From: Polyangiaceae bacterium
Lineage (GTDB): Bacteria > Myxococcota_A > Polyangia > Polyangiales > Polyangiaceae
Reading direction: 5' to 3'
DNA: 64,000 bases
Assembly (NCBI GenBank): GCA_020848455.1
Contig: JADLAB010000322.1
Location: forward strand, 1 to 64,000
Shown: piece by piece, positions 43,463-48,122 of the stretch
How the letters are laid out: every line of letters begins with the position of its first letter
Numbering within the stretch: the stretch's first letter is position 1
Translations under genes and position numbers: made by a program
Notes under the pieces: model-generated
The model's database searches: none
What the model was told of the DNA's origin: nothing
The model's input: the letters and a program-made list of their open reading frames with translations, nothing else

Positions 43463-43523
43463 CGCGCCGGCGTTCTGGTAGAGTCCCCGAAGGTCTTGCT
43501 TGGCACGGGCGAGGAGCACGTCT

Positions 43524-45020
43524 TTGAACAAGCTGCGTTGGGGCGTGGTGCTCGGGGCGATGGCGCTGCCGGGGGTGTGGCTGGCGGGCGCGTGCGGAGC
43601 GCGCACCGACATCGACCTCGACTTCGGTGAGCAGACCACGTCGTCGGCGCAGGGCGGGGGCGGTGCGGGCGGTCTCGGGGGCACGGGCGGTCTCGGTGGC
43701 CTCGGCGGCACGGGCGGCCTCGGCGGCACGGGTGGCCTCGGCGGCACCGGCGGTTTTGGGGGCACGGGCGGCTTCGGCGGCACGGGCGGTTTTGGCGGCA
43801 CGGGCGGTTTCGGCGGCACGGGCGGTTTCGGTGGCACGGGCGGTTTCGGTGGCACGGGCGGCATTCTCGAGGACGCCGGCGACGCGGCGGACGTCATCGA
43901 GGACGTGCCGATCGACGTGCCGATCGACGTGCCGATCGACGTGCCGAGCGACGTCGCGTGCCCGGACAACGACGGCGACGGCTACTCGACCTGCGACAAC
44001 GACTGCAACGACGGCAATCCGCTCGTGAACCCCGGGGCGTTCGACTTCCCGAACGGTGCGGACGACGACTGCGACGGTGCGCCCGACAATCCGGCCGTGA
44101 CCTGCGGCAACGGCCTCCAGTACGGCTCGCAGGATCCGATCGAGTACGCCAAGGCGATCGACATCTGCCAGACGACGACCGAGAACGCGACCGGCGCGAA
44201 CAAGAAGTGGGGCCTCGTCTCGGCCGAGTTCCGCCTCGCGAACGGCACCGGCACGCCCTCGGCGCAGTCGCACAGCATCATCACGGCGTTCGGCAGCGCC
44301 GTCGGGCCGCGCCACGCGCAGAACTTCGTGTTCCTGTCGACTGGCTACGCGGCCACCCCGTCGCAACCGTACTTCGTCGACGGCACGCCGCAGGGTGGCA
44401 ACGACCTCGGCACGAGCTCGGGGACGCCCCCGGGCTTCCCGACCAACAAGGTCGGCTGCCCGCTGCCGGTCTCGGGCACCGCCTTCAATCCCGTGAACCT
44501 GAAGCTCCGGCTGCGCACACCGACGAACGCCGCGAGCTTCGCCTTCGACTCGGCGTTCTGGTCCGCGGAGTACCCGGAGTGGGCCTGCTCGGTCTACAAC
44601 GACCTCTACGTCGTGCTCGTCACGACCGGCGCGAGCGGACTGCCCAACAACCGCAACGTGGTGTTCGACGCGCAGGGCACTCCCGGGTCGGTCAACCTCA
44701 ACTTCTTCGATCGCTGCATGGCCGGCGCCACGGGGTGCTTCGGCACGCCCGGCTTCAACTTCTGCTCGGGCGGCACGACCGACCTCGGCGCGACGGGTTA
44801 CGGCGATCAGGATTTCGGCATGCCGTGCGGCATGGCCACCACGGTCGGCGGGGGCACGGGCTGGATGACCACCCAGTCGCCGATCCTGCCCGGCGAGATC
44901 CTCACCGTGGAGTTCATCGTGTGGGACTCCTCCGACGGCATCTACGACTCCGCGGCCATCGTGGACTGGTTCCGGTGGCAACAGAACGGGGTTGCGAACC
45001 CCAGCACCGCAAGGCCGTGA
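43524..45020 (+). CDS. Gly-rich MopE/choice-of-anchor L lipoprotein
   Basis: A 498-residue protein. The TTG at 43524 is chosen because GAGGAG (43511-43516) lies 7 bases upstream; an earlier TTG at 43500 lacks a ribosome site. The signal ends in lipobox LAGAC. It is followed by about 65 residues of GGTGGLGG/GGTGGFGG repeats, four VPID units, a MopE-type motif (DNDGDGYSTCDNDCNDGNP, then DDDCDGAPD) and a choice-of-anchor L domain. Hallmarks of the last are SFAFDSAFWSAEYPEWACSV, NFFDRCMAG, DFGMPCGMATT and VDWFRW. It is likely a surface protein; its function is unknown. Confidence 0.85.
   Translation: MNKLRWGVVLGAMALPGVWLAGACGARTDIDLDFGEQTTSSAQGGGGAGGLGGTGGLGGLGGTGGLGGTGGLGGTGGFGGTGGFGGTGGFGGTGGFGGTGGFGGTGGFGGTGGILEDAGDAADVIEDVPIDVPIDVPIDVPSDVACPDNDGDGYSTCDNDCNDGNPLVNPGAFDFPNGADDDCDGAPDNPAVTCGNGLQYGSQDPIEYAKAIDICQTTTENATGANKKWGLVSAEFRLANGTGTPSAQSHSIITAFGSAVGPRHAQNFVFLSTGYAATPSQPYFVDGTPQGGNDLGTSSGTPPGFPTNKVGCPLPVSGTAFNPVNLKLRLRTPTNAASFAFDSAFWSAEYPEWACSVYNDLYVVLVTTGASGLPNNRNVVFDAQGTPGSVNLNFFDRCMAGATGCFGTPGFNFCSGGTTDLGATGYGDQDFGMPCGMATTVGGGTGWMTTQSPILPGEILTVEFIVWDSSDGIYDSAAIVDWFRWQQNGVANPSTARP
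43671..43862. repeat. In-gene 18-bp tandem repeat (GGTGGFGG type)
   Basis: About ten imperfect units of GGCACGGGCGGTTTCGGT type encode the Gly-rich linker of the preceding lipoprotein. Several successive units are identical or nearly so, indicating recent expansion. Confidence 0.85.
43902..43949. repeat. In-gene 12-bp tandem repeat (DVPI)
   Basis: Four consecutive 12-bp units of GACGTGCCGATC, the last with GAGC, encode DVPIDVPIDVPIDVPS. Confidence 0.9.
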
Positions 45021-45426: not shown

Positions 45427-47175
45427 ATGACTTTCACCGATGCTGCTCGCGAGGTGCTGCGCCTCGTGGGCCGGCCGCTCCACTACAAAGAAATCACGGA
45501 GCTGGCGATCGAGAAGAACCTCCTCAGCCACGTGGGCAAGAGCCCCGAGGTCACGATGGGCGCGCGCCTCGCCGCGACGCTGAAGAAGGAGGGTAACGAC
45601 AACCCGCTCGTGCGCATCAAGCCGGGCGTGTTCGCCCTGCGCGAGTGGGACGACGAGACGCTCCACCGCGGTCTCGAGGGCAGGCGAGCGGACGAGGAGG
45701 AGCCCGAGGTCGAGGAGCGCGACGTCGTCGTCGACGAGGCCGTGGAGCTCGAGGGCGCCGCCGAGGCGCCGGTCGGCGCGGAGCTCGGCGAGGCCCCGAT
45801 CGCGGAGGCAGCCGTCGAGGCGGTCACGCCGCCCGAGGTCCCCGCGGTGCCCGCTGCCGGCCCGCGCGCGGCCGGGGACCGACCCGCCGAGCGCGGTCGC
45901 CAGGGGCACCGCGAGCGCGGTGGTCGCCAGGGTGGCCGCGAGCCGCGCGCCCGGAGCGGCGCCGGCAACGGCGAGGCCGTGATCGTGCGGTCGCTCGACG
46001 GCGACGAAGACTTCGCACGCCACCCCGACGAGGCGATGCGAGCCGACCTCGCGGCCGGTGCCTCCGACCTCTTCGCCGAGGAGGAGGACGACGACCAGCC
46101 GATCCTCGCGCGCCTCACCGAGGCCGACGAGGCGGCCGGAGAAGGCGACGGGCGCAAGCGCCGCCGTCGCCGTCGCCGTCGCGGTGTGCGCGGACCCGAG
46201 GGCGGGCCCGTCGCGACGCCGCCGGCCGAGGGGCTGCCTTCGTACACGACGACGCCCGCCTTCGCGGAGGGCGCGCAAGAGCCGGAGGAGGGGCCCGCAC
46301 GCGGACCGCAGGTCATCGAGCTCACGGGTGCGAACGAGGGCGTGTCGCTCGACCTGCTCGCGGGCCGCGAGCTCTCGGACGCCGTCGCCGGCATCCTCGG
46401 CAGCTTCGAGCGCACCGTCGGACCCGTGTCGCTGCGCCAGATCGCCGAGACCGCGTTGCGCCGCGGCCGGCTGACGGGCGACCCCCAGATCGTGCAGTCC
46501 CAGGTCGCCGCTGCCGTCCGCGCCGACAACGCGCGTCGCCTCGCGGCCGGGCAGCGGCCGCGCTTCCGCCTCGCCGGCGGGCGCGTCGGGCTCACCGACT
46601 GGCTGCTCGACGGCGAGCTGTCACGGCTCGAGCGCGAGGCCGTCGCGGCCGTGGGTCGCTACCGGGACGCCGCCCGCCGCACTCTGCAGCGCAAGCTCGC
46701 CGAGCTGCCGGGGCACGCCTTCGTCGAGCTCTGCCTGCTCGCGCTCGAGCGCGTGGGCGTGAGTCGCATGCGCGCCGTGAGGGTTCCGGGCACGGCGCCG
46801 GCCGAGGCGCACTTCTCCGGCGTGCTCCACGCGCCGGCCGGTGCTGCACCGGGCCCGGTGGCCGTGGGTGACGGCCTCAAGCTCGCGATCGCCATCCGCA
46901 AGGACGGACGCGACGTCGGGCGCGAGCGCGTCACCGAGCTGCGCGGTAGCATGCATCACTTCGGCGGCGCCAACATGGGCTGGCTCGTCACCGCGGGGCA
47001 GGCGATGAACGGCGCCCGCGAGGAGGCCAGCTCCGGCGGCACGCCGCCGGTCGTGCTGATCGACGGGCCCAGCCTCGCGCGGCTGTGCGAGGAGCACGGC
47101 GTGGCGGTGGTGCGGGCGCAGCACCCGGTCGCCATTCCCGACGTCGACCTGTTCGAGGCGCTGCGGGCATCGTGA
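45427..47175 (+). CDS. Double HARE-HTH protein with Mrr-like C-terminal domain
   Basis: A 582-residue protein. Residues 1-74 form a HARE-HTH domain (TFTDAAREVLRLVGRPLHYK, RIKPGVFALREW). Residues 75-300 are acidic and low complexity, with an Arg run [10 protein letters not shown] at 244-253. Residues about 315-392 look like a second HARE-HTH (LSDAVAGILGSFERTVGPVS, GGRVGLTDWLL). Residues 425-582 resemble the Mrr endonuclease fold: HAFVELCLLALERVGV, GSMHHFGGANMGWLVTAG and VVLIDGPSLARLCEEHGVAV. The PD-(D/E)xK core is unclear: the Q.K strand reads LAIAIRKDG and the acidic position is not evident. It probably binds DNA; nuclease activity is uncertain. No methylase is adjacent. The start is supported by AAGGACGGAACG just upstream. 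Confidence 0.72.
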   Translation: MTFTDAAREVLRLVGRPLHYKEITELAIEKNLLSHVGKSPEVTMGARLAATLKKEGNDNPLVRIKPGVFALREWDDETLHRGLEGRRADEEEPEVEERDVVVDEAVELEGAAEAPVGAELGEAPIAEAAVEAVTPPEVPAVPAAGPRAAGDRPAERGRQGHRERGGRQGGREPRARSGAGNGEAVIVRSLDGDEDFARHPDEAMRADLAAGASDLFAEEEDDDQPILARLTEADEAAGEGDGRKRRRRRRRRGVRGPEGGPVATPPAEGLPSYTTTPAFAEGAQEPEEGPARGPQVIELTGANEGVSLDLLAGRELSDAVAGILGSFERTVGPVSLRQIAETALRRGRLTGDPQIVQSQVAAAVRADNARRLAAGQRPRFRLAGGRVGLTDWLLDGELSRLEREAVAAVGRYRDAARRTLQRKLAELPGHAFVELCLLALERVGVSRMRAVRVPGTAPAEAHFSGVLHAPAGAAPGPVAVGDGLKLAIAIRKDGRDVGRERVTELRGSMHHFGGANMGWLVTAGQAMNGAREEASSGGTPPVVLIDGPSLARLCEEHGVAVVRAQHPVAIPDVDLFEALRAS

Positions 47176-48122
47176 GCCCGCGCGTCGGAGCTCGGCGCGT
47201 GCCGGCCGGCGTGAGCCGGCCCGGGCGCGCCGGGGCGAGTGGGCTCGTGGCCGCCCTGGCGCTCTGCCTCGGCGGCTGCGTGCACCCGCCGCCGAAGTTC
47301 CAGTTCCCGACGGCCGAGGACGCGCTCGTGCGGATGAAGCAGGGCTTCGCGTGCGCCAACGGGGTGCACGGCATCGGCAAGATCGATCACCGCTCGCCCG
47401 ATCAAGGGCGCGTCCGCGGCGAGATCTCGATCTTCGCCCTCAATCCGGCGCGTGTCCGCATCGACGTCATCAACCCCTTCGGGGCGATGCTCTTCACGCT
47501 CACCTCCACGAGCCGCGAGTTCCAGATGCTGGACTTCCAGCAGAAGCAGCTGCTCGAGGGGGCCGCGAGCGCCTGCAACCTGGCGCGCCTCACCAAGGTG
47601 CCGGTGCCCGGACACGTGCTCGTGACCTTGCTGCGTGGCGAGGCCCCGCTGCTCGCGCACCAGCCGGAGGCGGCCACGCTCGCGTGGGACGGCTCCGACG
47701 GCTTCTACCGCGTGCGGATCAAGGGCAACCACGACGCCGAGCAGGAGGTACGGCTCGGCGTCCACGAGGACGACTTCGACAAGCCGTGGCAGGACCAGCG
47801 GCTGCGCGTGGTCGGCGTCACGACCCAGCAGGAGGGCTACGTCCTCTACGACGCCGAGCTGCGCAACCACGAGGTCGCCCACACCGCCAAGCCCCTCGAG
47901 GACGAGATGGGGGTCGACGAGGACGTGCCGCCGAGCGGCGGTCCGTGCGACATCGAGGTCCCGCGCTCGATCCGCGTCGAGGTGCCGAGCACGGCGGACG
48001 ACGTGATCTTCCAGTACAAGAGCCTCGATCTCAACCCGCCGGTGGAGCAGGGCTACTTCTACCAGACCTTGCCCCCCGGCACGGAGCGCGTGCGGGTCGA
48101 GTGCGACGACGCGTCGCGCTGA
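47172..48122 (+). CDS. LolB/DUF4292-like outer-membrane lipoprotein
   Basis: A 316-residue protein. The GTG start overlaps the previous stop (GTGA), so translation is coupled. A signal peptide (LVAALALCLGGC) gives the lipidated Cys near residue 37. The following 130 residues resemble a LolA/LolB-type half-barrel (GEISIFALNPARVRIDVINPFG, TLTSTSREFQMLDFQQKQLLEG, then VPVPGHVLVTLLRGEA). The C-terminal 100 residues are beta-rich and unrecognised. Roles in lipoprotein handling or lipid transfer are possible but unproven. Confidence 0.65.
   Translation: MSPRVGARRVPAGVSRPGRAGASGLVAALALCLGGCVHPPPKFQFPTAEDALVRMKQGFACANGVHGIGKIDHRSPDQGRVRGEISIFALNPARVRIDVINPFGAMLFTLTSTSREFQMLDFQQKQLLEGAASACNLARLTKVPVPGHVLVTLLRGEAPLLAHQPEAATLAWDGSDGFYRVRIKGNHDAEQEVRLGVHEDDFDKPWQDQRLRVVGVTTQQEGYVLYDAELRNHEVAHTAKPLEDEMGVDEDVPPSGGPCDIEVPRSIRVEVPSTADDVIFQYKSLDLNPPVEQGYFYQTLPPGTERVRVECDDASR

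Follow-up and report, generated by a model that had tools for sequence, protein, structure and literature searches.

HARE-HTH domains are considered to read DNA, and modified bases have been suggested as their targets (PMC11037411, PMC10853773). Several described or predicted proteins come close to the one reported here. In Myxococcota, restriction-type proteins join two HARE-HTH domains to an Mrr nuclease domain (L098:8360-9832 and L101:869-1954). The window, a stretch of 64,000 nucleotides from a Polyangiaceae bacterium, encodes a protein with the same parts: two HARE-HTH domains, a homologous Mrr domain and the VRG/LRGxL helix. In contrast to it, the restriction-type proteins keep the catalytic D...QVK, have no long acidic and arginine-rich linker and occur sporadically; one of them lies near a DNA methylase and AriAB, unlike the window gene.

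The nearest solved folds of the C-terminal domain belong to the modification-dependent endonucleases AspBHI and MspJI, but the window protein has no SRA-like domain and lacks both the catalytic Lys and the Gln. RNA polymerase delta (RpoE) of Firmicutes resembles it in the HARE-HTH fold (Z 6.5-6.9) and in a charged disordered tract; delta, however, has a single HARE-HTH and no Mrr domain. NA-iREase1 (PF22722), the inactive REase of NACHT proteins, is likewise a PD-(D/E)xK fold presumed dead and reused, and its profile match overlaps ours, although the window protein scores under the cut-off and carries no NACHT or other effector domain. In eukaryotes, the ASXL and HB1 chromatin proteins have the HARE-HTH family in common with it and linker histones the winged-helix fold, homology being shown at domain or fold level at most. 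We consider it an even call that the window protein is a non-cutting, winged-helix nucleoid or transcription factor, exapted from a restriction enzyme.

Domains and charged linker

Translation confirmed the open reading frame, from an ATG at 45427 to a stop at 47173-47175, and nearly all relatives keep the starting methionine and the 'MTF' that it opens. The coordinates of all features are collected in Table 1.

Table 1. Features of the HARE-HTH gene, its product and the gene downstream (window coordinates).
Feature	Position	Strand	Basis
Gene for the 582-aa double HARE-HTH, catalytically dead Mrr protein	45427..47175	+	Translation; Pfam; orthologues in 19/20 nearest genomes
HARE-HTH 1, most conserved part (residues 1-74)	45427..45648	+	PF05066; winged-helix model
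Acidic disordered-type linker, first half (residues 76-140)	45652..45846	+	Charge count, net -17
Conserved acidic peptide EEEDDDQPIL (residues 218-227)	46078..46107	+	[DE]n-x-P-I-L in homologues
Basic run of ten residues (243-252)	46153..46182	+	Shuffling; homologues
HARE-HTH 2, diverged (residues 314-394)	46366..46608	+	hhalign; AlphaFold winged helix
Long connecting helix (residues 396-426)	46612..46704	+	AlphaFold, helix 92-122 of the 305-582 fragment
Mrr-like PD-(D/E)xK domain without catalytic Lys (residues 425-555)	46699..47091	+	PF04471; fold; hhalign
E460 at the catalytic Asp position	46804..46806	+	Profile alignment
A489-I490-R491 at the Q-x-K positions	46891..46899	+	Profile alignment
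Downstream lipoprotein gene	47172..48122	+	Sequence, ORF, neighbour clusters

The first HARE-HTH domain matches Pfam PF05066 at E 7.7e-19 (68.3 bits against a curated cut-off of 25.9), and relatives across the phylum sample are 49-88% identical to the window copy. The second was missed by the Pfam search. Its family profile nevertheless aligns end to end with that of the first (hhalign E 8.1e-6, probability 84%), and it is a winged helix in an AlphaFold model of residues 305-582 (38 sequences, mean pLDDT 90), where it is followed by a long helix and the PD-(D/E)xK domain. Both HARE-HTH modules proposed in the sequence-only reading are thereby confirmed.

The C-terminal domain matches Mrr_cat (PF04471, residues 425-554) at E 1.6e-12, with 48 bits against a cut-off of 21; Mrr_N (PF14338), a winged helix found in the paralogue at L098, is absent from the Pfam matches of the window protein. 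By VIA-align its nearest solved folds are AspBHI (Z 11.2, 3.0 A over 136 residues), MspJI (Z 10.1) and AF1548 (Z 10.0). The structural comparison with Mrr that had been proposed as a check leads to the AspBHI/MspJI fold; by profile alignment the catalytic centre is incomplete, its Lys being missing. RPB5 and EndoMS/NucS also came up (Foldseek and VIA-align, Z about 7) and were set aside, having the PD-(D/E)xK fold in common and nothing more. Neither NCBIfam nor the plasmid and PHROG searches gave a match to the window protein.

Between the two HARE-HTH domains lies an acidic linker with a run of eight arginines, as had been read from the sequence, and the counts bear this out: a second acidic stretch (residues 181-242) carries a net charge of -16, next to the -17 of the first half, and R8 appeared in none of 20,000 linker shuffles. 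Runs of at least five K/R are present in 34 of the 41 homologues listed, and the [DE]n-x-P-I-L peptide in 17 of them under a strict pattern. DDDQPIL is found nowhere else in the genome, and its coding pattern occurs once genome-wide. The net charge is +6 for HARE-HTH 2 and +10 for the arginine run. Among relatives, the net charge has a median of +1 for HARE-HTH 1, close to neutral, and of -2 for the Mrr domain, where it runs from slightly negative to -14; these values do not favour a grip on DNA by the two domains.

The HARE-HTH 1 model is a winged helix whose nearest PDB folds are linker-histone globular domains (Z 8.8, 8.7, 8.3, 8.2 and 8.2). In the model this likeness, modest at Z near 8, reflects the common winged-helix fold and does not prove function; matches to that fold are common and do not indicate a function.

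The same domains give rise to the main rival explanation, an RNA-polymerase-bound role like that of delta, which we regard as possible but doubtful. HARE-HTH 1 would dock on RNA polymerase and the linker would act as a nucleic-acid mimic tuning promoter or transcript contacts, DNA binding being secondary. Delta pairs its HARE-HTH with charged disordered tracts, and the matches to PF05066 include Bacillus subtilis and Lactococcus lactis. The extreme conservation and near-neutral charge of HARE-HTH 1 would suit a conserved protein partner; its model matches 2m4k at Z 6.9, and that of HARE-HTH 2 resembles delta chains, among many others, at Z 6.9 and 6.5 (VIA-align). However, searches with the HARE-HTH 1 profile recover HARE domains from Mrr-type enzymes but, in the PDB at E up to 1, no delta chain, leaving the broad Pfam family as the link. 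By fold, linker histones outscore delta, which also has no counterpart of the Mrr domain.

Relatives and gene neighbourhood

Nineteen of the 20 nearest genomes hold an orthologue, which in those 19 is the sole HARE-HTH above cut-off. We searched 235 genomes, sampled evenly across the phylum, with the HARE-HTH 1 profile: it matches in all 36 genomes of the same family and order and in 11 of 12 of the same class. Five further families also match (f18, f26, f35, f40 and f49), while many other Myxococcota families in this sample have no match, so that the gene does not extend to the whole phylum. Within the order a single genome was found to lack it (G015, 92% complete). A single-sequence protein search of the genome contigs returned one near-identical relative and one HARE-only match.

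In the gene tree, which was built by a quick method and has some long branches, a branch with support 99 separates the 41 rows of the dead clade from the intact enzymes. The clade includes deep members of other classes (L102, L103, L106), and branching in the tree mostly follows taxonomic families and orders. The dead clade is thus monophyletic, and the gene is passed on vertically, usually as a single copy.

Among the intact groups nearest to this clade are separate HARE-HARE-Mrr proteins with GGIDV...VQVK from other Myxococcota genomes (L095, L097, L098, L101), whose Mrr domains match the A2 profile at E 1e-34 to 1e-36. The sequence-only reading had set the double HARE-HTH protein apart from classical Mrr; since these versions with an intact site occur in the same phylum, two HARE-HTH domains joined to an Mrr domain are not unusual in themselves. 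At L098:8360-18023 (G031:C2), a protein with Mrr_N, two HARE-HTH domains and an intact Mrr_cat sits in a likely defence island, together with an AriAB-like gene (E 3.9e-135), a STAND NTPase, a CHAT protein and an N6/N4 DNA methylase. A further type of HARE-nuclease fusion, again within the bacterial family, joins a HARE-HTH to what resembles, as judged by eye, a GIY-YIG-type C-terminal domain (L108:8848-9798, G066:C15).

The HARE gene lies near alaS in the window and in several family members. In other families its neighbours encode D-Ala-D-Ala ligase (Ddl), methylmalonyl-CoA mutase, LipB, MurA, a HAD hydrolase, an HtrA-like protease, an inositol phosphatase and others; the neighbours alaS, MurB, agmatinase and Sua5 were named by inspection. 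Immediately downstream in the window, the GTG start of a lipoprotein gene overlaps the HARE stop by four bases (GTGA), and the two are probably co-transcribed. This lipoprotein has no Pfam match above cut-off; a homologue is adjacent on the same side in L048 and L054, and in some family members the two genes stay together. On the other side, window positions 43500-45020 encode a secreted-type protein that contains a MopE copper-binding motif (E 7.5e-8) and a long glycine-rich repeat of the GGTGG type.

The sequence-only reading had noted the lack of a partner methylase and asked for a survey of neighbours in other Myxococcota. The survey bears out the first point: no methylase adjoins the window gene, and the 11 loci surveyed (neighbours within two genes, examined in part by Pfam) show housekeeping genes and no conserved adjacent methyltransferase. 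The only methylase near any family member examined is encoded two genes away in one relative (L056:11714-13753, G019); this protein has 680 aa, and its N6_N4_Mtase match is internal. No mobile or defence genes stand beside the HARE gene at the loci examined. The context is thus one of housekeeping, neither a restriction-modification system nor a defence island.

It is this context that makes a silent defence sensor unlikely. Under such an explanation the HARE-HTH domains would bind modified or foreign DNA and signal to an effector, or shield the chromosome from related restriction enzymes. A role as readers of modified DNA has indeed been proposed for the HARE-HTH domains of REase fusions (PMC10853773, PMC11037411). 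The window protein matches PADLOC PDC-S02 (E 1.3e-10) and, below threshold, NA-iREase1, with 22.2 bits for the whole protein and 24.8 bits for the domain alone against a cut-off of 27. Against this stand the housekeeping neighbours and the single-copy, vertical inheritance of the gene, a stability that is rare for defence genes.

The nuclease site and selection

We mapped the catalytic residues against intact Mrr domains of the same order (L070, L071, L072), to whose profile the family Mrr profile aligns at hhalign E 1.8e-15. The catalytic D, Q and K fall on E460, A489 and R491, so the D...(Q/E)xK of Mrr-type endonucleases is not found in the window protein. The reading of the Q.K strand as AIRK was therefore correct, Q being replaced by A489 and K by R491. 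The accompanying claim that no acidic site is evident stands in part only: E460 occupies the catalytic position, which is acidic in 34 of 38 relatives (E in 22, D in 12), but the centre is incomplete, its Lys being lost in 37 of the 38. Position 491 is R in 21 relatives, V in 8 and Lys in one; position 489 is V, Q, L or others. Two replacement patterns are seen, E...(V/A/I/L)-x-R-(K/R) in the order of the window (E..V-I-R) and D..Q-V-V in family f18. Judged from these alignments, the acid on the metal side is usually kept, and the Lys needed for PD-(D/E)xK chemistry is gone nearly everywhere. With E460 or D460 mostly retained, a metal or ligand site of some kind could survive.

R506 is invariant in all 38 relatives, and we considered the LRGxLHHY stretch around it as a new functional site. 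This candidate was dropped: intact paralogues carry VRGSL or LRGSLxRF as well, so the stretch is ancestral. The same observation bears on whether the protein still cuts, with a shifted site in which E460 together with R491/K492, or with E504 and R506 of the next helix, would replace D-QxK, the substrate being perhaps RNA or unusual DNA. Migration of residues is known among PD-(D/E)xK enzymes, and both the acidic position 460 and the invariant R506 would fit such a site. But Gln and Lys have been lost differently by clade (E..VIR, D..QVV), as expected of relaxed chemistry, and R506 lies in the stretch that intact paralogues also possess; we hold a shifted nuclease to be very unlikely. The deep members L105 and L109, which come from other families in the class, retain the HARE-HTH and a basic run of nine residues, but their Mrr domain is almost unrecognisable.

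Across six congeneric or close pairs, dN/dS is 0.02-0.14 in the dead Mrr domain and 0-0.13 in HARE-HTH 1. These ratios indicate purifying selection on every domain, the dead Mrr included, and rule out a decayed pseudogene. An ordinary Mrr-type restriction enzyme that decayed in the window genome only, an idea to which the Mrr_cat match well above cut-off would lend itself, is refuted by a Lys missing family-wide in a domain that selection still holds. We also considered an overlapping signal in HARE-HTH 1, where dS between the window and its nearest relative is 0.04 against about 0.18 elsewhere; the low value did not recur consistently in five other pairs, and we claim no such signal. Core-gene status and purifying selection fit the suggestion that the nuclease fold has been reused in a DNA-binding or chromatin-like factor.

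Proposed role and significance

The gene has probably been repurposed from defence to a core DNA or transcription job, because its cutting residues are lost yet close relatives keep it. We lean slightly towards a broader account, in which early domestication of a restriction-enzyme lineage in Myxococcota gave rise to a core DNA or transcription factor that acts globally and does not cut, a bacterial counterpart of the HARE-HTH chromatin proteins of eukaryotes. The ancestor would have been a HARE-HTH/HARE-HTH/Mrr restriction enzyme whose nuclease chemistry went with the catalytic Lys, and at an early stage the dead version would have become an established core gene in part of the phylum. In the present protein, the two winged helices may contact DNA, possibly modified or structured DNA, and the polyanionic and poly-Arg linker may tune or multiply contacts with nucleic acids or partners. 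The dead Mrr domain would no longer cut but would provide a fold through which the protein dimerises or binds a partner, and the whole protein would act in nucleoid organisation or transcription, not in restriction. The DNA contact, the partner binding by the dead domain, the cellular role, the choice between nucleoid and transcription, and DNA or RNA polymerase as the target are what we infer from the comparisons above.

The component domains are already known. A family-wide dead, single-copy, housekeeping HARE-HARE-Mrr protein with a charged linker was not described in the literature searched, which did not include the 2012 HARE-HTH survey, so an earlier mention is possible. Exaptation of defence nucleases to housekeeping has often been proposed, but it has seldom been seen with intact and tamed paralogues in one phylum. 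Here the proposal is testable by deletion of one gene, because the dead clade is monophyletic, under purifying selection, and present in all genomes sampled from the family and in almost every one from the order. HARE-HTH domains matter in human chromatin, as with ASXL1 in leukaemia, and what they bind is unsettled in the literature searched; a small protein from bacteria that carries two such domains would offer a tractable model.
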